Notes under the pieces: generated by a model | What the model was told of the DNA's origin: nothing | The model's database searches: none | Seen by the model: the letters and a program-made list of their open reading frames with translations, nothing else | Source of the DNA: a virus | Direction: 5' to 3' (one strand) | Length of the DNA: 22,131 bases | IMG/VR virus record: IMGVR_UViG_3300017764_000133 | Coordinates: 1 to 22,131 of that record | Shown here: positions 7,354 to 22,131 of the stretch, one piece after another | Position numbering within the stretch: position 1 is the stretch's first letter | Layout: each line of letters opens with the position of its first letter | Translations under genes and position numbers: made by a program

Positions 7354-9300
7354 ATGGCAATATATAAAATTTTTCCTTCAAAAGATGCTTCGCTTTATAC
7401 TATATCTCAAAGTATGAATACGGGATTAGATGAAATTTTAGAAGCATCTACTGCTATACAAGCTACTAAACCTCAAGTTAGTAGATATTTACTTGAATTT
7501 TCTCAAACAGAAATAAATAATTTTGTTGAAAAACATATATCAGGATCAGGTGTTACTAGATTAATAATTAATGATACAGGTGTCGGTACAGGTGGTGAAT
7601 TTTTATATGATCAGGATATGTCAGCGGGACCTACTTATCCAACATCATCAAATAGTATTTCAGGTCAGACACTTGCTGTAAATAATAATTTAGAATTTTC
7701 AATTGTTCCATCATCTTCATTTGGTGATGGTTATGGACAAAGATTTCTTGTAGGATTAAATAGTGGTTATTTTATACCAGGAGTTGATATAGTAGACGAT
7801 GCTGTAGTAAGTGGTTCAATACCAACAGGGTTTGCAGCAGCAGATGGTACTTATGGTCCCTTTATTTTCTCTCATGTAGATGGAAATCTTGATCTTAATA
7901 GAACAACATCATCTTTAAGCTCATCAGTAAATTTAACAATTGAAAATAATACACTAGTATCAGCAGTTATACAAAATAATGGCTCAGCTTCATATGTAGC
8001 AGCAGAATATTACCCAGTAGCAAGAGGTCCTTTAAATGATGGTGGGATGGGAGATTTATATATTTCAGAAGCTACAATGGATGCAGCTTACCCAGGTGTA
8101 TTCACTTTTTCAGGACCAACAGATTACAGACATTTTTATTTTAATATAAATAAAATACATACAGTAACAGTACCAAGTTTTATTAGAACTTTAGATTCAC
8201 AAGGATTTAAATATAAATCAGGAGATAAATTAGTATTCCCTTCACAATCATTTAACCCATACCCAATGTCAGACGATGTTTCAATTACATTATCTCCACC
8301 TACAGTATCAGGATCAAATTGGGAAGATGTACCAGCACAATATGAATTATTAAATTCGGCAGCTGTTGTTACAGGGGTACAAATGGATCAAACATTAAAA
8401 GTATATGCTGTATCCGGTAGTTGGAATATGGGAACAGGAAAATTTGCAAATAACCCCGTTACAACTAATGGTTGTAGTTGGACATTTAGAAATTATTCTG
8501 GATCAGCCGCAGATGGAGCTACAACATGGCAAACAACAGGAACTTATGGAGATTATGCTACTGCTTCTTTTTCATCATCAGATAATGCTGGAGGAGGGAA
8601 TTGGTATACAGGATCAGCTTTAGGTTTAGATATTGTTAAAGAACAAGTATTTTCATATGGTAACACAATTGATCTAAAAGTAGATGTAACTAATTATGTA
8701 AAAACATGGTACACAGCTTCTTTAGTAGACGCAGCTAAAGGATTTCCTAATGACGGATTTTTAGTTAAACAATCAAGTTCTAAAGAATTTATAAATAATC
8801 TAAATACAACAGCTACATTTAGATATTTTTCAGTAGATACAAATACAATATATCCTCCACTATTAAATATGAAGTGGGAAGATTATTACTTTACAACAGG
8901 ATCTTCAAATAATACAATAATAGGTACACAAGAATCATTTATGTCAATTTATAATAATGATGGTGTTTATTATTCTGGAAGTGTAGCTAGAATGAGAATT
9001 GCAGCTATACCAAAATATCCAGATGTAGTATTCCAAACAGCTTCTTTATATACAACAAATTATTATTTACCAGAAAATTCATCATCATATGCTATTAAAG
9101 ATACTGATACAAATGAATTTGTAATAGATTTTGATGACAAGTATACTAATATTAGTGCTGATGCTACATCAAGCTATTTTGACGTGTATATGAATGGTTT
9201 AGAACCAGAAAGATATTATACTATTTTAATTAAAACAAAATTAGATGGTACTACACAAATATATGATGAAGATATAATGTTTAAAGTAATAAATGGATAA
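7354..9300 (+). CDS. DNRLRE-like virion protein, probably with an inserted G-Y-x-x-G-D beta module
   Basis: This 648-residue structural protein follows gp6. The N-terminus (FPSKDASLYTISQSMNTGLD, residues 7-26, then RYLLEFSQTEI) and residues ~350-510 (VSGSWNMGTGKFANNPVTTN; TTWQTTGTYG; DLKVDVTNYVKTWY; NDGFLVKQSS; PPLLNMKWED) together follow the DNRLRE-type beta-sandwich pattern found in bacterial wall and disaggregatase-related proteins. The two halves are separated by ~270 residues that I read as an insertion. This stretch includes FIRTLDSQGFKYKSGDKLVF (277-296), similar to modules elsewhere in the window. The last ~135 residues look like an Ig/Fn3-like domain (EPERYYTILIKTKLDGT). The gene starts 12 bases after gp6 without a Shine-Dalgarno sequence, and its stop overlaps the next start. 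Likely role: outer baseplate or tail protein. The exact T4 equivalent is not identified. Confidence 0.65.
   Translation: MAIYKIFPSKDASLYTISQSMNTGLDEILEASTAIQATKPQVSRYLLEFSQTEINNFVEKHISGSGVTRLIINDTGVGTGGEFLYDQDMSAGPTYPTSSNSISGQTLAVNNNLEFSIVPSSSFGDGYGQRFLVGLNSGYFIPGVDIVDDAVVSGSIPTGFAAADGTYGPFIFSHVDGNLDLNRTTSSLSSSVNLTIENNTLVSAVIQNNGSASYVAAEYYPVARGPLNDGGMGDLYISEATMDAAYPGVFTFSGPTDYRHFYFNINKIHTVTVPSFIRTLDSQGFKYKSGDKLVFPSQSFNPYPMSDDVSITLSPPTVSGSNWEDVPAQYELLNSAAVVTGVQMDQTLKVYAVSGSWNMGTGKFANNPVTTNGCSWTFRNYSGSAADGATTWQTTGTYGDYATASFSSSDNAGGGNWYTGSALGLDIVKEQVFSYGNTIDLKVDVTNYVKTWYTASLVDAAKGFPNDGFLVKQSSSKEFINNLNTTATFRYFSVDTNTIYPPLLNMKWEDYYFTTGSSNNTIIGTQESFMSIYNNDGVYYSGSVARMRIAAIPKYPDVVFQTASLYTTNYYLPENSSSYAIKDTDTNEFVIDFDDKYTNISADATSSYFDVYMNGLEPERYYTILIKTKLDGTTQIYDEDIMFKVING
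8176..8301 (+). repeat. Candidate G-Y-x-x-G-D beta module copy within the DNRLRE-like protein
   Basis: Residues ~275-316 of the host protein read SFIRTLDSQGFKYKSGDKLV then FPSQSF, followed by a beta strand DDVSITLSPP. This parallels AGRGYNYGDVVTFPGS plus NTVTITF in the protein at 20441. Here the GY of the core is replaced by G-F-K-Y. It is the weakest of the copies and its boundaries are approximate. Confidence 0.4.
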
Positions 9301-10154
9301 TGGCGTACGGAAGCAAAACAAGTAAAGGAAGTACAGTAGTTTCGAGAATATCAAAAGCAACTACTAAACCACTATTATCAAGACCATCAGAAGGTTTTGA
9401 ACTGCCTGCTACTAATGTTACTCCTCCTCAAGCTAATGCAGAACAAGTAATATTAAATAGAGATGTTTTTAATAAAACAGCTTTTAATAATACTGTTAAT
9501 ACTAGTTTTACACAATTAGATCAAGCACCACCTGATTTAAGTTTTTTCGATTCAAACTTGGCTACCGTAAATGATTTTTTTAATATATATCAAAATTTAT
9601 TTTATCAAATACCAAAATTTGGACCTATTAATTCACATGAATATTTAGTTGTTGAAAGTACAGCATATTCTAATGTAATAGAAAATCAGGAACAAATAGA
9701 TGCTTTGTTAGAAGAAATAACAGATTTAAGAGCTGAAAATTTGCAATTACAATTAGATATAAATGAATTATTAGGGGTTCAAACAACATTAGATCAGGCT
9801 ATACAAGCTAGTAGTGGTGTAGGTAGTAGTTTAGAAGAGTTATTACAACAAGAAGCAGATCTAGGGGCTGAACAATCTAATTCAAGTTCTGATAATCTAA
9901 CAACAGCTCCATCTACTACACCAACAGGTGCTACTTTAGGCAATTTTGGTGGAGTTAATGGAGTAGGAATTGGAACAGCAACAGGTGGAACAGGAATTGG
10001 TGCAATACAAATGCCTAATTTTATTATACAGTCAGGTGCAGGGGCAGCAGAAGGATTAAATCCTACTTTAAATCAATCATTACTGGAACAACAATTAGGT
10101 GTTCCAACAGTTGGAATGCAAAATGTGATACCAATTAATGTACAAATATATTAA
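9300..10154 (+). CDS. Probable virion protein with a short central coiled coil
   Basis: This is a 284-residue protein. The N-terminus is basic and Ser/Thr-rich (MAYGSKTSKGSTVVSRISKA). A globular-looking part at ~80-125 contains DLSFFDSNLATVNDFFNIYQ and IPKFGPINSHEYLVVESTAY. A coiled coil follows at ~128-170 (NQEQIDALLEEITDLRAENL, then QLQLDINELLGVQTTLDQAI) with heptad-like Leu/Ile spacing. The remainder is Gly/Ser/Thr-rich and low in charge (GATLGNFGGVNGVGIGTATG) and ends QNVIPINVQIY. The coiled coil suggests an oligomer, possibly a trimeric connector or short fibre between wedge proteins. The start overlaps the upstream stop (TAATG), and the giant gene begins 7 bases after its stop. It may fill the position of T4 gp7-gp8-gp9 wedge proteins, but no sequence motif decides this. 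Confidence 0.6.
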   Translation: MAYGSKTSKGSTVVSRISKATTKPLLSRPSEGFELPATNVTPPQANAEQVILNRDVFNKTAFNNTVNTSFTQLDQAPPDLSFFDSNLATVNDFFNIYQNLFYQIPKFGPINSHEYLVVESTAYSNVIENQEQIDALLEEITDLRAENLQLQLDINELLGVQTTLDQAIQASSGVGSSLEELLQQEADLGAEQSNSSSDNLTTAPSTTPTGATLGNFGGVNGVGIGTATGGTGIGAIQMPNFIIQSGAGAAEGLNPTLNQSLLEQQLGVPTVGMQNVIPINVQIY

Positions 10155-10161
10155 ATAGAAC

Positions 10162-13100
10162 ATGATATCAATATCATCATCAATAGCAGAAATTAGCCCA
10201 TCAGAATTATTTACTGATGGTTTTGAATTACAAAATCAGACTGTAATTCCTATGGAATCTTTCTCTGGGTCATTCACTCAGAACTTAAATAATATAGAAT
10301 TTTATGTATATGATGCTAATAAAAATATTCAATATTCTGATTATGATTTTTCAAATTATTCTATAATATCAAATAATACCCCAGGAGCATCTCCAGCAGG
10401 TCAATCATTTGTACCTAGAACAACAAATACAAATTTATACGAAAGAAATAATAATTATACTTCTGAAAGAAATAGTACTACAAAATTTCAGTCGACTACT
10501 GATATAGTAGCAATATCCCCAGAAGAAGATGTTTATAATGCTGGTTATACAACAGGTAAATTATATGGGGTTTATAATTTTGTTAACTTAGAATTAAGCT
10601 CCTCTATTGATAATCCTTTTTATTTAGCAGAAATATCATCAGATAGAACTGAAATAAGATTAAAAACAAACTATCAAAATAATAATCAAATTCAAAGTGG
10701 TTATTTATCATTATCTAGAAAATTAGAACAAGCTCAATTTTTTGATGAGTTTTATATTTCATTTGGTCAAAATGAATACCACATAGGGGTTAACACTCAA
10801 TTATCAGTTCCAACACCAGGAACAGAAGACCAACAATATTCAATTTTAATTAAATTATATGATCCACTCCCTATAAAATACCAATTATTAGATGAATTAT
10901 ATATTGTTACTAAAACAGCAGAAACTAAAGCATTTCAAGTTGAATATATAGAAGATTTAGGTAATTTAGATGATTTAATACAATTAAAAGGACCTAATAC
11001 AAACTTAAAAATAAAAGATTTTATAAATAATTCAACTACTTATAAAAATAAAAATGAATTATTAGGTACAGAATCTTCGGGTTCAAAAGATCAATTATTA
11101 AATAGATTAAAACAAGATGGAATTGTTTTAACGCCAAATTACTCTACAGCATCTTTTAATGAATTTGTTAATTTTTCTTCTGCAAAATCAAGAGTAAATA
11201 ATTTTTATGAAAAAGTAGGTAATATACAAGCTTATGAAGCTGACATAACTTCTTTAAGTAATACTACATCTTCAAATTCAGGTGTAACACAAATATCATC
11301 TAGTATAGCTTCTTTATATACTAAAATAGAAGATGAAATTTCTAATTTTGATGGGTTTGAATACTATCAATATTATAATACAGGTTCGGATGCTTACCCA
11401 AAAACAGGATCATCATTTCCTTTAGAATTATTATCTACAAGCTCAGCAGAGGTACTAAGATGGTTAGGTAGTGATGTAGAAAACAATCAATATTATGGTG
11501 GAGCAATACTATCAGCTTCTTTATATGATTATGATAATCAAAATTGGTTATGGTTTACTATTCCTGAATTTATTAAAGAACAAAGTAATAATGATAATTA
11601 TATAGATTTTGTAAATATGACTGGTCAATCATTTGATGAGTTATGGATGTATACAAAAGCAATAACAGAAAAATTAAATACAACAAACGAATTAGATAAA
11701 GGAGTTCCTTTATCATTAGCTGATGATGTTATTACATCTTTAGGATATGCTGGATATGGAAATAATTATAATAATCAAGATAATTTTATAGGTTTAACAG
11801 GTGAAGATAATGGGGTATATGTTCCATCAACAGGAAGTGAATTAATTACACAATATATTGCTATCAATAATGGTCAAATAGCTAATTATTGGCAGTATGA
11901 TTATTCTGTACAAGATTATGTACAACAATTATTAACAGCAGGTTTCCCTTATCCAATTGATAAAGTAAGTAATGAAATATATAAACGTCTTTATCATAAT
12001 ATGGCTTATCTTGTTAAGAAAAAAGGTACAGTAGCTGGATTAAGACAATTAATTAATATTTGGGGAGTACCAAGTACAATATTAAGAATAAATGAATTTG
12101 GAGGTAAAAATAAAGATCAAACTGATGATTATGATTTATGGTATAATAGATATAGTTACGCCTATAAACCTGTAGCTGATTCTTATAATGCAAGTTCATC
12201 AATAGTAGTACCATGGTTACCTTTAAATAGAAATTACATTGCAGAATCTAGTTCATTTATTGTACCAGATGGAGTTGGGTTTAGATTTAAAACAACAGGA
12301 CACCCATCATCATCTTTTGATGGAAATTATTATAGCCAATCATTAATAGCTAAAAAATCAGATGGTACAGCAGATGATAATTTTGATTGGACAGTAAATT
12401 TATTTTGGACAGGTTCACAATCAGGGTCGTATTCAGGATCAGGTAATAGTGATTATTATGAATATGGGGTAATGAATTTAATAATGTCTGGATCAGCAGA
12501 TGATGGGGGAACTGCTATATCAGAAGATATTTATCTACCATTCTTTGATGGTGGTTGGTGGTCAGTATTAGTACAAAGAGATCAACATCCTAATGCTGTA
12601 GGGTTAAGTTCAGGATTTAATTCTTTACTAGCTACTTTAAATTCAGGAGTAGGAGCAAATGCTAATCCAACAGATTGTACTGCTGGTACTTATACTAATG
12701 TTTCTTTAACTGGGGGTTCTGGAACAGGAGCAGTTGCAGACATAGTTTGTGCTCAATCAGGTTCAGGTACTCCAGATCCAATTGCTATTACAGAAATAAC
12801 ATTAACAAAAACAGGAACAGGATATGCTGTTGGAAATCAATTAAATATAGCAGCAGGTGCTTTAGGATCACAAACATTAGCAGGCACAATTGCAGTAGGT
12901 TCAATTACTTCCCCTTCAGGAACTTATACTACAGCAGGATTCCCAGGTCCAAATGGTGGAGGTAATTATCCATCAGTTACTTTAACAACAGTAACAGGAA
13001 CAGGTGCCGGAGGTGATGTTAACGTAGTAACAAATGATCAAGGTGGAATTACTAGTATTACAGTAGATACTATAGGTTCGGGTTATGCAACTGGTAACCA

Positions 13101-16100
13101 AGTATCAATTGCAGCAGGTGATTTAGGAGGAGGAACAGTAATTGGTCCTTTAGAAACTCCATTATCATACGCAGGTGCGGGTACATTATTCCCAGTTGGA
13201 ACTTATACTTATGAAAATACATCAGGTGGAACTTTAACCCAAACAGCAGGTACAGATGGAGATAATTTATCAATTAGATTTACAGTTGATGTAGTAAATA
13301 CACTACCAGCTTCAGTTGAAGTACTTATGCCAGGATTTGGATATGCAGGAAATTGTGTATTCCAAATACCAAATAATGCAGTTGTAGGAAACTCAGCAGT
13401 AAATGTATCTGTTCCTTCAGCTGCAATATCAGCTAACTCAGAAGCTATAACTATAACATTACAAGCAAGTGATATTAATGCTACATCTGATGCAGCTGCA
13501 ATAGTATTAACTGCAGCAGATTTAGCTAATGGAGATAATGGTCGAGCAACCAACTACACATTATTTGCTAAAAATAAAATATATGATGGTAATGATGGTA
13601 ATAGTATAGGATTTGAAGGATCAGCTAGTATATCAACAGGTGGTGGAGCAGGAAGTGGAGCCCTTTATGGATCTGGTTTATATGGATCAGGGGTATATGG
13701 TACTTATATTTCATCATCAGTTAATAAAGCATGGAACATGTTTGGAACTGTTGCAGTTCCAGATGGTGTTCATATAGGAGGTGCTTTAACAGGTGTTGAA
13801 ATAGCAGGTATAGGAACTAATAATTTCTTAGCACAAGAACCAGGAAAAATATTTTCAGGATCCTTCCAAGAATTTAGATATTATTCACATGATATAAGTG
13901 AGTCTGTATTTAATGATTTCGTTATGAATCCTGAATCAATTGAAGGTAACTTTATAACAGGATCAGAGTCATCATTTGATATAGTAAACTTTAGAGCCCC
14001 ATTAGGTAATGAATTAACAAATTTCTTTACAGCATCACAAGGTGTAACATCATCTAATGTAACTACATTCTTAACTTCTTCACACCCAGCAGTTACAGCA
14101 TCTGCACCTGAGTATATAACAGCTTCATTTATTGATACAGCAACAGATACTTACGACAGATATTCTTGGATACAATATCAAAATACTGCTGTAAGAACAT
14201 TTAGTGAACCTAATACAGAAACATATTTCTTAGACCAACCAGCTGTTGGAATTAGAAACAGAATATCAAATAAAATACAAGCTACAAGCAATTTAAATTT
14301 TGGTAATGTATTATCAAATCAAGTAAGTATACAAAAAGATCCATTTATAAGTCAAAGTTATACCGAAAATATTAATACATTAGAAGTAGCATTTTCACCA
14401 ACATCAGAAATTGATGATGATATTATACAATCATTAGGTTATGGTGCTATACAAGAAGTTATAGCAGATCCTAGGTTTAGATCATCATCAGATGATATTT
14501 ACCCAGGTTTAAGAAAAATTGCAGATGATTATTTTAGAAAATATATAGGTAGTGATCCTTATGATTACATAAGATTAATAAAATATTTTGATGATTCATT
14601 ATTTAAAGCGATTAAGAACTATGTACCTGCTCGTACAAGTGTGTCTACAGGTATTGTAATTAAACAAAACTTACTAGAACGTAATAGGTACCGAGAACCG
14701 CAAATGGACATAGTGACTACACAGTCCTACGCTACAACTAACGTTCCTTTAACATATAAAAATTTAATGTTATCAGGATCAATTTACTCACAATCTGTAA
14801 TAGTTGGTATTGAAGGTGGTGCAGGTGGTCCTTACAATCAATATAATACTTTAGAAACAGGCTCAATTATATTTCAAGCGGATGGTCCTACATCTAATGT
14901 TTCTTATGCTGCTTCTAAAGAAAATAATTTCTTATATAGATTTGGTGATTTCCTCCAACCAGATGCAGCTAATACTGGTGTTGTAGTTGATTTAGGTGAT
15001 AATACAACATCAGGAGATGTAACACAAGGTCCATTCTTTACAGTTAATAAATCAATAAGAACTCCTTTATATTGGAACCCAGCATATACTGTGGGTAATA
15101 CACCTGGTGATTTTACAATTAAAATATACTCAGATAAAAGAGGATTAATTTATGAAGCTGCAGATAGACAAACAGCTACTAATCCTGCAGGTCAATTATT
15201 ATACACAGATAGATTTCAAACCCAAATTGTATATGCTGAAATGCACCCCGGTGAAAGATTAAGATTATTTTTCAACCCAGATTCTGCTACAGTAATAACA
15301 AATGATGGAACTCAAGCAGTATTATCATTTGGTAATAGTAAAGATATATTTAATTTATATGATGGAACACCATTACTTAATTCTGCATCAATTAATTTAC
15401 CAATGTCACAACAGGGTTACTTTGCAAATGAAGTAACAACATTAGGTACAATTACATCATCATTTATTGATAATGAAGAACAATTTTATAATGGAGAATT
15501 AAGTGGTAGTAATTTTAATACATTTACATACTCATCATCATACGTAAGCCCTTATAACCCATATGCTAGAGTTTCTAAGAATTCAACAGGATCAGCTGCA
15601 TTTCAATCTTTACTACCAGTTGTAGACCTTTCTGCAGCTTATATATCAGCATCTGAGGGTGTTGGTGGTGGTTCATCAGGAGTTACAACATTATCTAGTC
15701 AAACGGCTACTGGATTTACAAGTACAGCTGGATCAACTGATTCTTCAACTGTATCATTCTTAGTAAGTAGATCATTAATACCAGGTCAAGAATATTTAAT
15801 GACTTATGACTTAAATGTAACTGCAAAAACATCACCAGGAAATGTAGGAATATCTGCATTTAATGAATCTCCAACTGGGGGTTACTTTAGTGAAAATGGA
15901 ATTGGATTTGGAAATGTAAAAGGTCAAGTAGATTCCTTCTCGGGACAAGGTGGAGGACTTGGTTACACTACAGGGGTTAAAGATACAATACCAGCTACAT
16001 TTATTAGTGCTTCAGTAGGACAAGAAATACAACCATTTACTGGTACAGCAGCTGAAGGATCAGGGTTAAGAGTAAATATTGGTTCGGTTGATGGAAGTGG

Positions 16101-18570
16101 TGCTCCTTCAAGTATTACAATAGTTGATGGAGGATCAGGATATTCAAAAGAAGACCCAGGATCAGTAAATATTATAGATGATGGAGTAAATAAAGGATGT
16201 GCATTAACAATAGGTGCAGCAGGAGCTGTAGTAACATCAATTACAGGTAATAAAGCTTACTCACAATCATTTAGAGCATATCAATTTGATGATGATATAC
16301 GAGCATATATGTCTGTTAATTTTATAACTTCTCAAAATACTACTGCTACACTATCTAATTTTAAAGTTGAAGGTCAAGGTGATTTCTTTAATGATCAAGT
16401 AGCTCCAATTTATTTAAATCCACTACAACAAGATCAATGGCAAGTATTAAATACTCAAAGTATATTATTTGATAATTCAGATTATAATCCATTAAATAAT
16501 TTTATAATGCCACAAAGATCAAGTAGTTTTAGATATGCTTTAACTTACGATCAATCACAAACTCAACCAACTGAATTTAATAATTTAGTTACTTGGTCTT
16601 ATGAAAATCAAAGTGTATCAGCTAGTGCACCTAATCCAGCAACTTTAGAGGATAGTAATTATACACAACAATCATATACTTTACCTAGATATAGAGGTAG
16701 TAAATTAAAAAGTTTAGATTATAACTTCTTTACACCTTCAGGAACAGTAGGACCTATTCAAGCACAACCAACAGCTCCTTATAATATAGGATATGGTTAT
16801 TCTTCAAGTGTTGCTATTGAATTCCTTGATGGGGCAACTGGTAGTTATACTGGTGACTTATCATATGGACAAACATCTTGTATTAATAAGAACCCACAAT
16901 ATATAGCTCATTTCCAATCATCATTTTCACCAACAAGTTATTACCAAGCAATGCAGTTTAATATTGATTCATTAATTGAAATACCAATGGATTCTATTAG
17001 TGGTAGTGAAATTACTCCTAATTCAATTGACATTAATGGTGATAATGAAAATAAAAAATCAGTATCAAGTGTATTTGAACCAAGTAGATTAATGCAATTT
17101 ACATTTGATGATTTAACATTTAACAATATTCAATATGGTACAATAGGAGCTGGTCCTTTTAAAATATTAAACTCAGCTACTGTATTTAAAACCATAAATT
17201 CAAATGCTAGAAATTTTGCAGCTGAATCTCAAACATATCAATATCAACAAGCAGGTGTACCTCTTTCACAATCTGTAGTACCTTTAGATGATGTAGGTAC
17301 AATTCAAATGGTAACAGCTAGTAATATTACAGTAACAGCTACTGTACCTACACAAAGTAATGGATTCTTATTAAGTGGTAGTAATTATTACGTAGCAAAT
17401 ATATCAGAATCATTCTTACCATTTGCAACATCACAATCTACAAATGAGCCAACAATTCCACCACCTTATAGGTTAGAATTATCTGGTCCACAATTAGCAT
17501 TATTCCACACTTACAACAAGTTAGTAGAAAGTGGATCTACAAGACAAGATCCCACATGTTTAACACCAGAATCATCATCTACGATATGGGTTAAAGATGG
17601 TTTAGATCCAAGAGATAAAGATAATTATTATTCATGGTACCCAACAGGTTCTAATTGTGGTAATTATGCTGATTATCAAGAACCATTCTTAATAAATAGA
17701 GGTGATATAATTAGAGCAGAAGGTTTAAGAGAAATATTTGTTGAAAATAATAAACCATCTCAATCATTATCATTTAACCAAGAATTTACAGTACTAGAAG
17801 TACAAAATTATAGATACTCAGGATCACAAGGAACATTAGTAAACGGGTCATTTATTAATAATTCATCAATAACACCTCCTGGATCAAGAACTTCAACTGT
17901 AGCAGGACCTGCAACTTTTCCTTTTAATGCGGCAAATCCAAATGATGATGCATTTCAAACAAGTGGAGCAGGTGTAAGTGGATCCGTAACATTAACAACA
18001 ACTTTAACTTCAAAATTTGTTAATACAATAACTGGTGGTTTCTTAACAGCAGGCGCATCCTCAGGTTATGTTGCTGGTGATACTATTACATTAACTGAAG
18101 ATTCATTAAATTCTCAATTTAGTAATGTTTTTGGTAGTGTAATATTAACTTTACAAGGAGCAAATGTTCAAACAGGAACAAGTGGTCCAAATAATGGGTT
18201 TAGATTTAAAGTAGATAAACAATGTTGGAATGGTGGTACAGAAAGATATAATGAACAACCTGAAGGAGGTATAGAATTTGTAGCACCTACATTTTTAAAA
18301 GTAACTCCTGATCCATTAGTAGCATTAAATGGGTTAGATAGTGGGGCAATCACTAAATTTACAGTAAGAAGAGAAGTAGAACAAGATAATAGAGTAATAG
18401 CTAGAGGTGTACAACCACCATCTGGATCAAAAGGAACAAGAACACAATCAGGTGGTGGGTATCTTATACCTAATGATTTAACATTACAACAAAAAGAAAA
18501 TGCTTTAAATATTATCAACCAATTAAGAGCTAAAAACGCATTTCCAGGTAATGATAATACTTCATCGTAA
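10162..18570 (+). CDS. Giant multidomain baseplate/tail protein (2802 residues; tail-protein-I-like, split LamG-like and jelly-roll-like domains)
   Basis: At 2802 residues this is far larger than any T4 wedge protein (gp7 is 1032). Residues ~17-60 and ~110-275 are conserved-looking N-terminal beta domains (SGSFTQNLNNIEFYVYDANK; NPFYLAEISSDRTEIRLKTN). Residues ~600-648 (KRLYHNMAYLVKKKGTVAGL then RQLINIWGVPSTILRINEFG) resemble the helical core of tail protein I/gp7-type wedge proteins. Residues ~694-1260 are a LamG/concanavalin-like domain split by three Gly-rich repeats. Residues ~1417-1515 (IDDDIIQSLGYGAIQEVIAD; FDDSLFKAIKNYVPARTSVS) are a second helical wedge-like block. Residues ~1835-2073 are a jelly-roll-like domain (LIPGQEYLMTYDLNVTAK to TLSNFKVEGQG) holding another module. 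The C-terminal part holds one more. It is probably an outer-baseplate scaffold displaying sugar-binding-like domains. The reading frame is uninterrupted. Confidence 0.7.
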   Translation: MISISSSIAEISPSELFTDGFELQNQTVIPMESFSGSFTQNLNNIEFYVYDANKNIQYSDYDFSNYSIISNNTPGASPAGQSFVPRTTNTNLYERNNNYTSERNSTTKFQSTTDIVAISPEEDVYNAGYTTGKLYGVYNFVNLELSSSIDNPFYLAEISSDRTEIRLKTNYQNNNQIQSGYLSLSRKLEQAQFFDEFYISFGQNEYHIGVNTQLSVPTPGTEDQQYSILIKLYDPLPIKYQLLDELYIVTKTAETKAFQVEYIEDLGNLDDLIQLKGPNTNLKIKDFINNSTTYKNKNELLGTESSGSKDQLLNRLKQDGIVLTPNYSTASFNEFVNFSSAKSRVNNFYEKVGNIQAYEADITSLSNTTSSNSGVTQISSSIASLYTKIEDEISNFDGFEYYQYYNTGSDAYPKTGSSFPLELLSTSSAEVLRWLGSDVENNQYYGGAILSASLYDYDNQNWLWFTIPEFIKEQSNNDNYIDFVNMTGQSFDELWMYTKAITEKLNTTNELDKGVPLSLADDVITSLGYAGYGNNYNNQDNFIGLTGEDNGVYVPSTGSELITQYIAINNGQIANYWQYDYSVQDYVQQLLTAGFPYPIDKVSNEIYKRLYHNMAYLVKKKGTVAGLRQLINIWGVPSTILRINEFGGKNKDQTDDYDLWYNRYSYAYKPVADSYNASSSIVVPWLPLNRNYIAESSSFIVPDGVGFRFKTTGHPSSSFDGNYYSQSLIAKKSDGTADDNFDWTVNLFWTGSQSGSYSGSGNSDYYEYGVMNLIMSGSADDGGTAISEDIYLPFFDGGWWSVLVQRDQHPNAVGLSSGFNSLLATLNSGVGANANPTDCTAGTYTNVSLTGGSGTGAVADIVCAQSGSGTPDPIAITEITLTKTGTGYAVGNQLNIAAGALGSQTLAGTIAVGSITSPSGTYTTAGFPGPNGGGNYPSVTLTTVTGTGAGGDVNVVTNDQGGITSITVDTIGSGYATGNQVSIAAGDLGGGTVIGPLETPLSYAGAGTLFPVGTYTYENTSGGTLTQTAGTDGDNLSIRFTVDVVNTLPASVEVLMPGFGYAGNCVFQIPNNAVVGNSAVNVSVPSAAISANSEAITITLQASDINATSDAAAIVLTAADLANGDNGRATNYTLFAKNKIYDGNDGNSIGFEGSASISTGGGAGSGALYGSGLYGSGVYGTYISSSVNKAWNMFGTVAVPDGVHIGGALTGVEIAGIGTNNFLAQEPGKIFSGSFQEFRYYSHDISESVFNDFVMNPESIEGNFITGSESSFDIVNFRAPLGNELTNFFTASQGVTSSNVTTFLTSSHPAVTASAPEYITASFIDTATDTYDRYSWIQYQNTAVRTFSEPNTETYFLDQPAVGIRNRISNKIQATSNLNFGNVLSNQVSIQKDPFISQSYTENINTLEVAFSPTSEIDDDIIQSLGYGAIQEVIADPRFRSSSDDIYPGLRKIADDYFRKYIGSDPYDYIRLIKYFDDSLFKAIKNYVPARTSVSTGIVIKQNLLERNRYREPQMDIVTTQSYATTNVPLTYKNLMLSGSIYSQSVIVGIEGGAGGPYNQYNTLETGSIIFQADGPTSNVSYAASKENNFLYRFGDFLQPDAANTGVVVDLGDNTTSGDVTQGPFFTVNKSIRTPLYWNPAYTVGNTPGDFTIKIYSDKRGLIYEAADRQTATNPAGQLLYTDRFQTQIVYAEMHPGERLRLFFNPDSATVITNDGTQAVLSFGNSKDIFNLYDGTPLLNSASINLPMSQQGYFANEVTTLGTITSSFIDNEEQFYNGELSGSNFNTFTYSSSYVSPYNPYARVSKNSTGSAAFQSLLPVVDLSAAYISASEGVGGGSSGVTTLSSQTATGFTSTAGSTDSSTVSFLVSRSLIPGQEYLMTYDLNVTAKTSPGNVGISAFNESPTGGYFSENGIGFGNVKGQVDSFSGQGGGLGYTTGVKDTIPATFISASVGQEIQPFTGTAAEGSGLRVNIGSVDGSGAPSSITIVDGGSGYSKEDPGSVNIIDDGVNKGCALTIGAAGAVVTSITGNKAYSQSFRAYQFDDDIRAYMSVNFITSQNTTATLSNFKVEGQGDFFNDQVAPIYLNPLQQDQWQVLNTQSILFDNSDYNPLNNFIMPQRSSSFRYALTYDQSQTQPTEFNNLVTWSYENQSVSASAPNPATLEDSNYTQQSYTLPRYRGSKLKSLDYNFFTPSGTVGPIQAQPTAPYNIGYGYSSSVAIEFLDGATGSYTGDLSYGQTSCINKNPQYIAHFQSSFSPTSYYQAMQFNIDSLIEIPMDSISGSEITPNSIDINGDNENKKSVSSVFEPSRLMQFTFDDLTFNNIQYGTIGAGPFKILNSATVFKTINSNARNFAAESQTYQYQQAGVPLSQSVVPLDDVGTIQMVTASNITVTATVPTQSNGFLLSGSNYYVANISESFLPFATSQSTNEPTIPPPYRLELSGPQLALFHTYNKLVESGSTRQDPTCLTPESSSTIWVKDGLDPRDKDNYYSWYPTGSNCGNYADYQEPFLINRGDIIRAEGLREIFVENNKPSQSLSFNQEFTVLEVQNYRYSGSQGTLVNGSFINNSSITPPGSRTSTVAGPATFPFNAANPNDDAFQTSGAGVSGSVTLTTTLTSKFVNTITGGFLTAGASSGYVAGDTITLTEDSLNSQFSNVFGSVILTLQGANVQTGTSGPNNGFRFKVDKQCWNGGTERYNEQPEGGIEFVAPTFLKVTPDPLVALNGLDSGAITKFTVRREVEQDNRVIARGVQPPSGSKGTRTQSGGGYLIPNDLTLQQKENALNIINQLRAKNAFPGNDNTSS
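12685..13428 (+). repeat. Three tandem ~87-codon Gly-rich beta repeats inserted in a LamG-like domain
   Basis: Three in-frame units each begin with G-T-Y (residues 842, 920, 1013) and carry a core at 885-894 (GTGYAVGNQL), 972-981 (GSGYATGNQV) and 1058-1066 (GFGYAGNCV). The core GY positions are 87 and 86 residues apart. Units 1 and 2 are also related at DNA level (GCAGCAGGTG...TTAGGA at 12850 and 13111, 261 bases apart), while unit 3 is more diverged. They lie between WWSVLVQRDQHPNA (799-812) and NYTLFAKNKIYDG (1131-1143), which look like adjacent strands of one lectin-like fold. Confidence 0.75.
16033..16248 (+). repeat. Single Gly-rich module copy in the jelly-roll-like domain of the giant protein
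   Basis: Residues ~1958-2029 contain FTGTAAEGSGLRVNIGSVDG, SSITIVDGGSGYSKEDPGSV and NIIDDGVNKGCALTIGAAGA. The order is the same as in the other copies: beta strand, then ITI/ITV-x-x-x-G-S-G-Y, then a strand and a final A-x-V-T-S-I-T-G. The flanks (TIPATFISASVGQ before, YSQSFRAYQFDDDIRAYMSV after) look like consecutive strands of the surrounding beta domain. Confidence 0.6.
17971..18180 (+). repeat. Diverged Gly-rich module copy near the C-terminus of the giant protein
   Basis: Residues ~2604-2673 read GVSGSVTLTTTLTSKFVNTI, then GGFLTAGASSGYVAGDTITL and a strand SVILTLQGANV. The core S-G-Y-V-A-G-D-T-I-T-L matches the pattern of the other copies. It lies between FTVLEVQNYRYSGSQ and TFLKVTPDPLVALNGLDSGA, which read like parts of one beta domain. 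Boundaries are approximate. Confidence 0.5.
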
Positions 18571-18616
18571 GATGTAGAATGTTTATTATAGCTTGGAATA
18601 GAAACTAAAAAATTAT

Positions 18617-18629
18617 ATATTTATAACTA
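18617..18629 (+). promoter_or_regulatory. Candidate phage late promoter upstream of the third structural operon
   Basis: ATATTTATAA at 18617-18626 is followed by CTAAAA, in the 72-base gap after the giant gene, which is the longest gap in the window. The octamer TATAACTA (18622-18629) differs from T4 TATAAATA at one position. T4-like spacing would give a leader of about 8 bases before the ATG at 18643. The rest of the gap (18571-18610) shows no G+C-rich hairpin with a T run, so no terminator is called. Confidence 0.65.
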
Positions 18630-18642
18630 AAATAACACAGTA

Positions 18643-19326
18643 ATGGGATATTTAAATAACCAAATTATAACAGTTGATGCAATATTAACTAAAAAAGGAA
18701 GAGAATTACTAGCAAAAGGTGATGGTTCCTTTAATATAACTCAATTTGCTTTATCTGATGATGAAGTAGATTACACATTATACAACCCTAACCATCCTTC
18801 AGGATCAGCATTTTATGGTGAAGCAATTGAAAATATGCCTTTACTAGAAGCATTCCCAGATGAAGCACAAATGATGAAATATAAATTGGTTACTTTACCA
18901 AGACAAACTGCTAAGATGCCTATTTTAGCTGGATCAGGAATTGGCCCATTATTAAAAATCCCACAATTATCATCAGAAACAATAACACCAGAAACATTAA
19001 ATTATCTAAATGGAACTAATTTTGAGCCATCAGGATATTCATTTACTATTTCAGATGTAAGAGTTACTTCACAATTTTTTGGTAACGGGGTTAAGTCAGC
19101 AGCCGCACTAGCGTTAGCAGCACAAAATGCTAATCAAACTATAACAAATGGTACAGCAACTTCTCAAACAGTAATAGGTACTAATTGTACGATTGTAGCT
19201 ACAGGAGTTAATACATTATTTGGATCTAATAATGTTTTATATGCTACACTAGTAGTAATAGGACAAGACTCAGGAGCAAGAGCGTCAGTTCCATTACAAA
19301 TAACTAAAACAACAACAGCATCTTAA
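18643..19326 (+). CDS. Conserved phage structural protein, probable tail component
   Basis: This is a 227-residue protein. The N-terminal block (MGYLNNQIITVDAILTKKGR, ELLAKGDGSFNITQFALSDD, EVDYTLYNPNHPSGSAFYGE) resembles a structural protein that recurs beside tail genes in marine T4-like phages. I know it by pattern only, not by an established function. A short middle part (MMKYKLVTLPRQTAKMPILA) leads to a ~80-residue Ala/Thr/Asn-rich beta domain (TSQTVIGTNCTIVATGVNTL; VVIGQDSGARASVPLQITK). No membrane segment or signal peptide. It is the first gene after the third candidate late promoter, followed 11 bases later by the paralogous tail pair. The start is preceded by AAATAACACAGTA, with no Shine-Dalgarno sequence. 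Confidence 0.7.
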   Translation: MGYLNNQIITVDAILTKKGRELLAKGDGSFNITQFALSDDEVDYTLYNPNHPSGSAFYGEAIENMPLLEAFPDEAQMMKYKLVTLPRQTAKMPILAGSGIGPLLKIPQLSSETITPETLNYLNGTNFEPSGYSFTISDVRVTSQFFGNGVKSAAALALAAQNANQTITNGTATSQTVIGTNCTIVATGVNTLFGSNNVLYATLVVIGQDSGARASVPLQITKTTTAS

Positions 19327-19337
19327 ATAAATAAACC

Positions 19338-20435
19338 ATGGCAGACGAAACAACATCAAGAACCACATCAGTAGCAAGTTTAAGAGGTGCTTATATACCA
19401 TTAGATGCCTCAGATAAAGTATTAAGTACTGATTCTGTAACAGCTGCAATGTGGAGTGATAATACACCAACATTACAAGTATTCCAAACAAGTTCAGCTC
19501 AAGTAACAAGTGCTGTAAAAGAATATTATACATCAGTATATCAAACAGCTTCAACAGGAGTAACAGCAGCAATTCAATTTGACATTGCTTATAATGATAT
19601 AGTAGGTAGTGGTAGTGCACCATTAAACCCATTAGTTGTAGGTACTACACCTTCAAGAATAAATTATGGTTCATATAGAAATTTAGTATTAGGAGATGAA
19701 AATGCTTCATTTATATTTGGTAGCCAAACATCATCTTATTTTTATTGTTTACCAATTGAAAGAGCAAGATATAAGCAAGCTATTTTACCTGGAACCTGGA
19801 CATTAAATATATCAGGATCAGCTAATGAATTATCATTAACTGATGATAGTAAAGTAAATACAGTCGCTCAATTTTCAGACGCTGGAAGATATTATAACAT
19901 AATTTCAGGATCAGCAGGAGCAGTTAGAACAACATCTGACCAAACAGACGTAAATGGATGGACCCTTAATTCAGGATCGTATGGTTGGATTTTACCAGAT
20001 GTAGATTTATTAATTTTAAGTGGAGAAGCTTTAGATGCAGCAGCTGCAGATGGAGGTATAGCTTTAGGTACAGTTAGATCAAATGGTTCTTGGGATGATA
20101 ACTCAGCAAAAATAGTAAATGCTTTAGGTGTAGCAGGTAAATTTGGAACAGCTACAAAAGGGTTTACATTAAATTCAAAAGAAGATTTATCATCTGATTT
20201 TATATTTTGTAGAGCAAAATCACAAGAATACAATTATTCATCTAATCCATCATTTATATCAAGCTCAACAGGAGCAATATTATTCGATTCATTCATAGAT
20301 AACCCAACAACTTACATTACAACAGTAGGTCTATATAATCAGTCACAAGAATTATTAGCAGTAGCTAAATTATCTAGACCATTAGAAAAAGATTTTACTA
20401 AAGAATTACTTGTAAGAGTTAAACTTGATTTCTAG
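19338..20435 (+). CDS. Tail structural protein, paralog A
   Basis: This is a 365-residue beta-rich protein. The C-terminus YITTVGLYNQSQELLAVAKL followed by SRPLEKDFTKELLVRVKLDF is a conserved closing domain. The same order of blocks appears in the neighbour at 20441: an aromatic Y-Y segment near residue 55, FGSQTSSYFYCLPIERARY in the middle, YGWILPDVDLLILSG, then a strand pair ending Q/N-E-Y/F-x-Y-S/T-x-N-P-S. The two are therefore duplicates that have diverged. Paralog A has no Gly-rich insert and so shows what the uninterrupted C-terminal domain looks like (NYSSNPSFISSSTGAILFDS, then FIDNPTTYITTVGLYN). Such proteins accompany baseplate genes in marine T4-like phages and probably form a tail or baseplate appendage. 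The exact location is unknown. The next gene starts 5 bases after its stop. Confidence 0.68.
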   Translation: MADETTSRTTSVASLRGAYIPLDASDKVLSTDSVTAAMWSDNTPTLQVFQTSSAQVTSAVKEYYTSVYQTASTGVTAAIQFDIAYNDIVGSGSAPLNPLVVGTTPSRINYGSYRNLVLGDENASFIFGSQTSSYFYCLPIERARYKQAILPGTWTLNISGSANELSLTDDSKVNTVAQFSDAGRYYNIISGSAGAVRTTSDQTDVNGWTLNSGSYGWILPDVDLLILSGEALDAAAADGGIALGTVRSNGSWDDNSAKIVNALGVAGKFGTATKGFTLNSKEDLSSDFIFCRAKSQEYNYSSNPSFISSSTGAILFDSFIDNPTTYITTVGLYNQSQELLAVAKLSRPLEKDFTKELLVRVKLDF

Positions 20436-20440
20436 GATGG

Positions 20441-21754
20441 ATGGCAGTATTCAAACAATTTAATACAAACGAGGTAGTAATAACTCCTTTCACTGCTAAT
20501 AAGCGATTTCATTTTAGTAGTAGTCAAGTTTCTGCTTCTGATGTTGGGATTGAATATTATCAAGGTATACAAGGTGCTTATACATCAGGATCAAACCCAA
20601 CAGGATTTACCACAGTATTAGATAAAGTATTAGTATTTAATAGTACTAAACAATTATATTATTCTAATTTTTTAACTTCATCAACAGGTGATAATTTACC
20701 TTCTCAAAGTTTAATCCCAGGAGCAACACCAGCATATAATAGAAATGTAGGTATAACTACGGGTCCTAGATTTGATAATTTTTTACAATCATCACTGTCA
20801 CAATCAAGATATTTTGCACAATTTTCATCTTCAACAGCTATAAATGGACCATCAGTAATCTCAATACCATCAAAACTATTTGGTGAAAAAATACCATGTG
20901 AACAATTTCAATTTGAATATACATCATCTGATTTTACTCATAGTTTAGTTAAAGATGATGGTGAAGGAAATTTATTAGCACAACAAACAGATGCAGCAGG
21001 TGGATTTAGTGTAACACATAGTGTAGGACAAATATTTTATTCTCAAGGAATAGCAGTATTAACAGGAGGACCAGATGACCCAGGTCAATTAAGATTATTA
21101 GGGTCACAAGTAGGTTATAAAGATAACATGACTTCTCAAATGAATTCATCTTCAATACAATTCTCATCCTCAATTACAATTAGAGAAAATCAATATAAAT
21201 GTGTAATTAGAGATAATGAATTTTCATATACAACTAATCCATCATCTTTAAGACCATCAGGTGAAGTTTCATTAGCTGAAAATGCTTTATTACCATCAAC
21301 AGATATAACAAATGTTTCACCAGTACAAGGTACTTATACACTTATAGGTAATGGAGCAGGTGCTTCAGTAATAACAACAGTATCTGGTGTAGGAACAGGA
21401 TTAATACTAACAGTAGTAGTAGGTGCTGATAGTACAATATCAACAATAACAGCTACTAGTGCTGGTAGAGGATATAATTATGGAGATGTAGTAACATTTC
21501 CTGGTTCACTAATAGGGGGTAACAATACAGTAACTATCACATTTGCAGTAGGAAATTTAATGGCAACTACATTTGAGGAAAATCCAAATGAAGTATACTA
21601 TGACTTTTGTACTGGATCTTATTTTAGCCCTTATATAACACAAGTAGGTTTATATAATGAAGCTAATCAATTAGTAGTTGTAGGCAAATTATCAAGACCT
21701 ATACCTATATCCCTTCAAACGGATACTACTTTTGTAGTTAATTTTGATACATAA
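20441..21754 (+). CDS. Tail structural protein, paralog B, with an inserted Gly-rich module
   Basis: This 437-residue protein is related along its length to the protein at 19338. Shared blocks are EYYQGIQGAYTSGSNPTGF, FGEKIPCEQFQFEYTSSDF, VGQIFYSQGIAVLTGG, ENQYKCVIRDNEFSYTTNPS and the closing ITQVGLYNEANQLVVVGKLS plus RPIP. It is ~70 residues longer, and the extra length is nearly all one Gly-rich module at ~297-370, placed between DNEFSYTTNPSSLRPSGEV and the closing domain. GGATGG upstream of the ATG (TTCTAGGATGGATGG) gives the only purine-rich element near a start in this window. Its spacing is short for a Shine-Dalgarno sequence. Role inferred as for paralog A: a tail or baseplate surface component, with the module probably exposed. 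Confidence 0.68.
   Translation: MAVFKQFNTNEVVITPFTANKRFHFSSSQVSASDVGIEYYQGIQGAYTSGSNPTGFTTVLDKVLVFNSTKQLYYSNFLTSSTGDNLPSQSLIPGATPAYNRNVGITTGPRFDNFLQSSLSQSRYFAQFSSSTAINGPSVISIPSKLFGEKIPCEQFQFEYTSSDFTHSLVKDDGEGNLLAQQTDAAGGFSVTHSVGQIFYSQGIAVLTGGPDDPGQLRLLGSQVGYKDNMTSQMNSSSIQFSSSITIRENQYKCVIRDNEFSYTTNPSSLRPSGEVSLAENALLPSTDITNVSPVQGTYTLIGNGAGASVITTVSGVGTGLILTVVVGADSTISTITATSAGRGYNYGDVVTFPGSLIGGNNTVTITFAVGNLMATTFEENPNEVYYDFCTGSYFSPYITQVGLYNEANQLVVVGKLSRPIPISLQTDTTFVVNFDT
21329..21550 (+). repeat. Gly-rich G-x-G-Y module inserted in tail paralog B
   Basis: Residues ~297-370 run GTYTLIGNGAGASVITTVSG, VGTGLILTVVVGADSTISTI, TATSAGRGYNYGDVVTFPGS and LIGGNNTVTITFAVG. It begins with G-T-Y like the tandem units in the giant protein and carries the core G-R-G-Y-N-Y-G-D. 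The neighbouring paralog at 19338 lacks it at the equivalent place, which is the clearest evidence that it is an insertion. Confidence 0.7.
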
Positions 21755-21757
21755 CAT

Positions 21758-22131
21758 ATGACACATATGCCAACAACCGCTACCTGGGTATACCAGGGAA
21801 GGGTTATAACATCAATAAAGGATATGCCAGAAGGAACTTATGGGTTTATCTATGAAGTTAGATATAAACCAACAGACGTAAGGTACATTGGTAAAAAAGT
21901 GCTTTATTTTGAAAGAAATAAAAGATTAGGCAAAAAAGCTTTAGCAGCACTTAGAGAAGAAAGATCAAAACAAGGACTAAGAGGTCGTGTTCCTATTAAA
22001 CAAAAAGTAATAACTGAATCTGATTGGAAGGATTATTTTGGATCCCAAAAAGAAATTGTTACATTATCCAAAAAAGATAATGCTGGTGAAAATTGGGAAA
22101 AACGTATATTACAATTTGTTCCTAACAAAAA
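21758..22131 (+). CDS. GIY-YIG-like nuclease family protein (3' end outside window)
   Basis: The start at 21758 lies 3 bases after the previous stop; an alternative Met is three codons later (21767). The 124 codons present contain TYGFIYEVRYKPTDVRYIGK (27-46), which fits the GIY-YIG pattern: F-I-Y at 30-32 and Y-I-G at 43-45 with 10 residues between. R53 sits about where the catalytic Arg of I-TevI-type enzymes falls. A second conserved-looking block, ESDWKDYFGSQKEI (87-100), and GENWEKRILQF near the break resemble uncharacterised phage proteins of this superfamily. The predicted activity is metal-dependent DNA cleavage. It could be a free-standing (Seg-like) homing endonuclease or a phage DNA-processing enzyme. 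The catalytic Glu cannot be assigned with the C-terminus missing. Confidence 0.6.
   Translation, partial: MTHMPTTATWVYQGRVITSIKDMPEGTYGFIYEVRYKPTDVRYIGKKVLYFERNKRLGKKALAALREERSKQGLRGRVPIKQKVITESDWKDYFGSQKEIVTLSKKDNAGENWEKRILQFVPNK

Follow-up and report, generated by a model that had tools for sequence, protein, structure and literature searches.

The phage proteins analysed here carry a self-contained module that is inserted into loops of virion proteins and is gained, lost and exchanged among phages. The module is rich in glycine and threonine and about 65-75 residues long. Eight copies of it are present in the window, by which we mean the whole stretch of DNA under study, 22,131 bases taken from a virus record; seven of these were detected by a sequence profile and the eighth is divergent (Table 1). 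They are hosted by three proteins, A648, B2802 and C437, which are preceded by a baseplate wedge gene of the Pfam family GPW_gp25 and a gp6-like wedge gene assigned by PHROGs. The closest annotated relatives are the immuto-group Flavobacterium phages, where distant homologues of the three proteins are found with the gene order preserved. An ORF at positions 544-1353, upstream of the baseplate genes, shows weak likeness to late sigma factors (PHROG 234, E=0.0026; Pfam Sigma70_r2, E=0.003).

Table 1. Proteins hosting the module, module copies, and occupied and empty insertion sites in the window.
Feature	Positions	Strand	Remarks
Host protein A648	7354-9300	+	Adjoins baseplate wedge genes gp25/gp6
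Module copy A-1	7846-8067	+	A648 aa 165-238; profile match 6e-11
Module copy A-2, divergent	8098-8316	+	A648 aa 249-321
Empty insertion site in A648	8542-8547	+	After aa 397, between WQTTGT and YGDY; one further module here in L056
Host protein B2802	10162-18570	+	Large virion-type protein
Alternative loop 1 site, B2802	12238-12243	+	After aa 693, between NRNYI and AESS; empty in the window, filled in L033, L035 and L046
Three-module cassette insert, B2802	12595-13542	+	316 aa, within loop 2 of the ~325-aa conserved region, between QRDQHPNA and RATNYTLF
Module copy B-1	12685-12888	+	B2802 aa 842-909; profile
Module copy B-2	12919-13146	+	B2802 aa 920-995; profile
Module copy B-3	13198-13410	+	B2802 aa 1013-1083; profile
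Module copy B-4	15997-16212	+	B2802 aa 1946-2017; profile, family-specific models
Module copy B-5	17917-18132	+	B2802 aa 2586-2657; profile, family-specific models
Host protein C437	20441-21754	+	
Alternative C437 site	21119-21124	+	Near aa 227; empty in the window, second module in L020
Insert in C437	21245-21592	+	~116 aa, aa 269-384; missing from L022 and from ~320-aa relatives, e.g. L038
Module copy C-1	21329-21541	+	C437 aa 297-367; profile

A first-pass annotation had proposed that one Gly-rich pattern recurs in these three different proteins. This was borne out, and the module extends beyond the three. A profile iterated from ten seed copies and searched against the window and the loci of its relatives yielded 86 domain matches in 51 proteins, which represent about 49 distinct copies, while none of 2,820 decoys, made by reversing or shuffling these proteins, matched it at E<=1. 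As self-inclusion is a concern with an iterated profile, we built family-specific models, and these recognized copies across families: the A-family model matched a B2802 copy (E=1.5e-7) and C437 (E=0.004), the C-family model matched B2802 copies (E=1.8e-5 and 8.8e-7) and the B-family model matched C437 (E=5.2e-7). The strict motif GxGYxxG[ND] occurs three times in the window, compared to 0.02 occurrences expected from shuffled sequences. A coincidence of low-complexity sequence was considered as well and rejected, given the lack of decoy matches and the success of the cross-family profiles. The module consensus reads GxYxx-(strand)-GxGxxxxxT-(turn)-ITxIT-xxxGxGYxxGDxxTI-(short helix)-strand.

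The positions proposed in the first-pass annotation agree with the profile in B2802 and C437 and had to be revised in A648. There, the segment marked at 8176-8301 belongs to a real module but covers only the C-terminal half of copy A-2, and the strong copy A-1 had been missed. The profile itself detects only the GxxYxxGD half of A-2 (E about 3e-4). In hhalign this copy received a probability of 45-58%, and none of eight control segments from A648 exceeded 0.3%. A-1 is joined to the other copies only via A-family relatives, because a model lacking the A family misses it; once realigned, it was detected also by a model lacking the C-family copies.

A structure was predicted for C437. The mean pLDDT of the model is 56, and most of residues 281-370 reach 75-88, excepting the loop at 301-320; copy C-1 is among the best-predicted parts of the protein. 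Strands are predicted at residues 297-302, 319-327, 333-343 and 350-354, followed by a short helix and a strand at 363-367. When the C437 module was modelled in isolation from a 63-row alignment the strand order was identical, at lower confidence (pLDDT 57.7), so that one strand order was obtained in and out of context for this copy, where the first-pass annotation had asked if the segments belong to different folds. Foldseek searches of the PDB with these weak models, of the full protein or of the isolated module, gave no useful match, and PDB searches with single sequences gave nothing. The module profile matched two PDB entries weakly, an Acinetobacter phage tailspike (E=0.038) and T4 gp18 (E=0.22). 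For the B2802 region, a guessed LamG/concanavalin-like identity was dropped, as neither Pfam nor the PDB supported it.

Five protein families have both occupied and empty sites among relatives, A648, B2802, C437, the tail sheath and a neck-adjacent protein, and in the first three the position of the module also differs from relative to relative. Most A648 relatives are about 370-390 aa long and miss both copies (the module-free reference, L038, has 381 aa). L056, which is ~92% identical to the window over the codons to the left of the aa-397 site, has one extra module there. The conserved region of B2802 spans 322-332 aa without inserts. With three modules in loop 2, as found in L023, L024 and the window, its length is 642 aa, and with the insert in loop 1, as found in L033, L035 and L046, it is 438-696 aa. 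Ten of 16 distinct B2802 relatives have no insert in either loop, among them L050, which shares 79% identity with the window over its best segment. Of the 16 full-length relatives aligned for C437, 15 have the main site occupied. Just upstream of C437, an E365-like protein carries one module in each of two relatives (L032, 18257-19708, and L033, 18150-19649), and no module was seen in E365, which occupies the same place in the window. The first-pass claim that the module interrupts a domain, rather than being added at an end, holds wherever empty sites are known; the region of B-4 and B-5 aligns poorly and offers no clean empty site. The occurrence of occupied and empty sites in close relatives suggests that phages trade the module as a detachable surface add-on.

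The same module was found in further virion genes. In a related 163-kb record (G001), the counterparts of A, B and C gave no module match, and a three-module cassette is present in each of two other genes. One encodes the tail sheath (864 aa; Pfam Phage_sheath_1, PHROG 23), and the insert is absent from the sheath of G004, a 576-aa frame that is 62-67% identical to it. The other encodes a 437-aa neck-adjacent protein, beside a head-tail adaptor gene. Its orthologue in G003 is about 150 aa long when counted from ATG and is 76-79% identical, and in the alignment query residues 98 and 380 meet with no gap between them. Module-to-module scores indicated that the order of the cassette is kept between both G001 genes, and for the first two B2802 modules; the best pairs were B1-neck2-sheath1, neck3-sheath2 with B2-sheath2, and neck4-sheath3. 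The cassette was found also in nine more sheath fragments or proteins. Whole-genome scans of isolated cyanophages yielded 13 matches in S-PM2 and 17 in S-B43, all in genes annotated as virion proteins or in neighbours of such genes; the tail sheath of S-PM2 is among them (match at aa 219-283, E=1.4e-8). No module match turned up when immuto, Mel-JY01, LR756508 and the record of G004 were scanned whole, and relatives of the sheath cassette were not found in bacterial genomes at the sensitivity used. In S-PM2 and S-B43 structural proteins (L115, L119, L121) the module is accompanied by a shorter variant repeat, GxGYxxPPxVxI, of about 35-40 aa, which is similar to a stretch of an Acinetobacter phage tailspike whose structure is solved (28lx, E=0.038). 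During 500 days of chemostat growth of S-PM2d with its host, mutations arose in the module-bearing genes S-PM2d081, 086, 088 and 218 (PMC9910659); all four genes are very large, and we conclude nothing about the module from these mutations.

The first-pass annotation had further suggested that the module spreads by recombination among loops, and allowed that relatives in which it is always present at a fixed position would speak for the opposite. Both presence and position were found to vary, and the DNA itself is mosaic. Between L056 and L034, the A648 insert is 88% identical, whereas the left flank is 57% and the right flank 74% identical. At fourfold-degenerate sites identity is 39/54 inside the insert and 59/119 outside (Fisher p=0.008), and therefore stronger constraint on the protein cannot account for the similarity of the inserts; this mosaic is the result of horizontal exchange. 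Such a contrast between module and flanks was not seen in the L033/L034 group. Synonymous sites of B2802 diverge less in the inserted stretch (0.18-0.23) than in the backbone (0.35-0.37). It is highly improbable that the modules are ancestral segments inherited vertically and lost in some lineages, with all apparent mobility due to loss. The wide sharing of the main C437 site is what such a history predicts, but it is contradicted by relatives of one protein that use different loops, by module DNA far more alike than its flanks in L056 and L034, and by one homologous cassette in unrelated genes. We rejected pure vertical inheritance for A648 and B2802 on the basis of the differing loops and the L056/L034 mosaic, though loss may lie behind some single empty sites.

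Immediately after C437, at positions 21758-22129, the window encodes a GIY-YIG protein (Pfam SegE_GIY-YIG, E=9.5e-13). In Microcystis phage Mel-JY01 a GIY-YIG gene likewise lies 3′ of the C homologue, and the G004 sheath is followed by an ORF that looks similar by eye (L133, 2897-3664). It is possible that exchange near these genes is driven by an endonuclease.

Portable accessory domains of virions are a known kind of element, and this module family is a previously unnamed member of that kind: it is absent from Pfam, and no description of it was found in the literature searched. The Ig-like domains of phage virions, described by Fraser et al. (2006) as cited in PMC9230969 and PMC10684548, are portable and non-essential and are supposed to bind surface sugars weakly. 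The module resembles them in being a beta domain that moves among unrelated virion proteins, but differs in its GxGYxxGD signature, its insertion into loops and its three-module cassettes, and no Ig-type family was among the Pfam matches of the 49 module copies at E<=1. The BACON repeats of crAss-like phages (PMC6949934) are likewise small beta domains that recur within structural proteins of phages; however, 0 of the 49 copies matched Pfam BACON. Twenty-six of the 49 matched PHROG 6005, annotated 'virion structural protein' (best E=2e-8), and therefore some phage proteins already catalogued contain the module. Unlike the module, PHROG 6005 is a whole-protein family of 1,512 positions, in which the module is neither named nor delimited. 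Ongoing exchange of fragments has been reported for phage tail fibres, tail spikes and baseplate proteins (PMC10684548). The process seen here is alike in that fragments pass among phage structural proteins, and to that text, which treats neither the tail sheath nor marine phages, our analysis adds empty sites at the level of the module in sheath and neck-adjacent genes.

The module also shows some resemblance to domain I of T4 gp18 (PF22639). That domain protrudes outward, makes no inter-subunit contacts and binds the retracted long tail fibres, and three mutations in it block fibre retraction (PMC3004832). The single module match in the whole T4 genome falls within this domain (18 positions, E=6.8e-4), and hhalign aligned the module with PF22639 at 82% over just 24 columns, or at 68% when a doubled module profile was used. 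The gathering cut-off of PF22639 was reached by none of the 49 copies and two matched below it (best E=0.018), while S-PM2 gp18, with a full module inside, has no PF22639 match. The G001 cassette follows the conserved sheath stretch RVAS, which precedes domain I in T4, and the S-PM2 module lies further along its sheath than this slot. Both are small beta domains inserted in the same region of the sheath and share a GSNYxVGDxI stretch, but the likeness spans only 18-24 positions, and domain I is described as a six-stranded barrel whereas the module is predicted to have five strands. We regard common descent of the two as a lead and not as a result. That the module serves as a docking pad for fibres, whiskers or other virion parts, as domain I does in T4, seems to us quite unlikely: it would fit the fibre-binding role of domain I, the location of the sole T4 match and the slot of the G001 cassette, but the match is very short, and a required dock is not expected to vary or to be missing in close relatives, as the modules are. 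A broader scenario, which we regard as speculative and rather doubtful, is that the three-module cassette is a mobile unit that marine myoviruses pass intact among their genes for sheath, neck-adjacent and baseplate proteins, giving one phage the same coat on several tail parts, and that domain I of the T4 sheath would be a fixed and rearranged descendant of a single module.

By crude counts from few sequences, module pN/pS is 0.31-0.40, and the backbone values are 0.15-0.19 in C437 and in the N-terminal half of B2802 and 0.385 across the whole of B2802. The modules are under purifying selection by these values, which stay below 1 and so speak against an average copy being caught in an arms race over receptor contacts. 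Lysine and arginine make up 2.0% of the modules compared with 5.8% elsewhere in the same proteins, and the mean net charge is -2.7 per copy, which makes electrostatic attachment to acidic surfaces less likely. Polar contacts with glycans still fit, and a passive spacer fits the low charge equally well. The module might be a structural spacer or clamp that packs on adjacent subunits to make large tails stiffer, and it would then play no part in contacting the host. The purifying selection, the charge and the occurrence in sheath, neck and baseplate would all suit such a role, and either adhesion or stability has been proposed for additional sheath domains (PMC9230969); yet close relatives of the same protein do without the module and its site varies, so that no fixed interface depends on it, and we consider this explanation somewhat unlikely.

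The reading that we favour, and hold to be reasonably probable, is of a self-contained, loop-inserted beta module, present singly or in three-copy cassettes, that is recombined between phages, faces outward and provides many weak, mainly uncharged contacts. It is a Gly/Thr-rich beta domain of about 65-75 residues, with five predicted strands and a short helix, set in surface loops of virion proteins and conserved enough to be of use, and its termini are probably close together, as the clean insertions hint that it buds from a loop without disturbing the fold of the host protein. Recombination between phages adds, removes and swaps single copies or cassettes. By analogy with T4 gp18 domain I, whose slot is used by one cassette, the modules would point outward on sheath, neck and baseplate, where they would most likely make their contacts with glycans of the host surface or with neighbouring virion parts. 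These contacts would tune adsorption and the robustness of the particle, and not the choice of receptor. The natural empty sites hint that the module may be dispensable for infection in the laboratory.

A hitherto nameless domain, found repeatedly in the virion genes of marine phages and of cultivated Synechococcus phages among them, is hereby named and delimited. Matches to 'virion structural protein' family profiles should be read with caution, as they may stem from the module alone. Some of the differences in length among tail sheath, neck-adjacent and baseplate proteins are due to the module, and the natural pairs with and without it, such as the 150-aa and 437-aa neck-adjacent proteins and the 576-aa and 868-aa sheath frames, make its role as an accessory domain directly testable.
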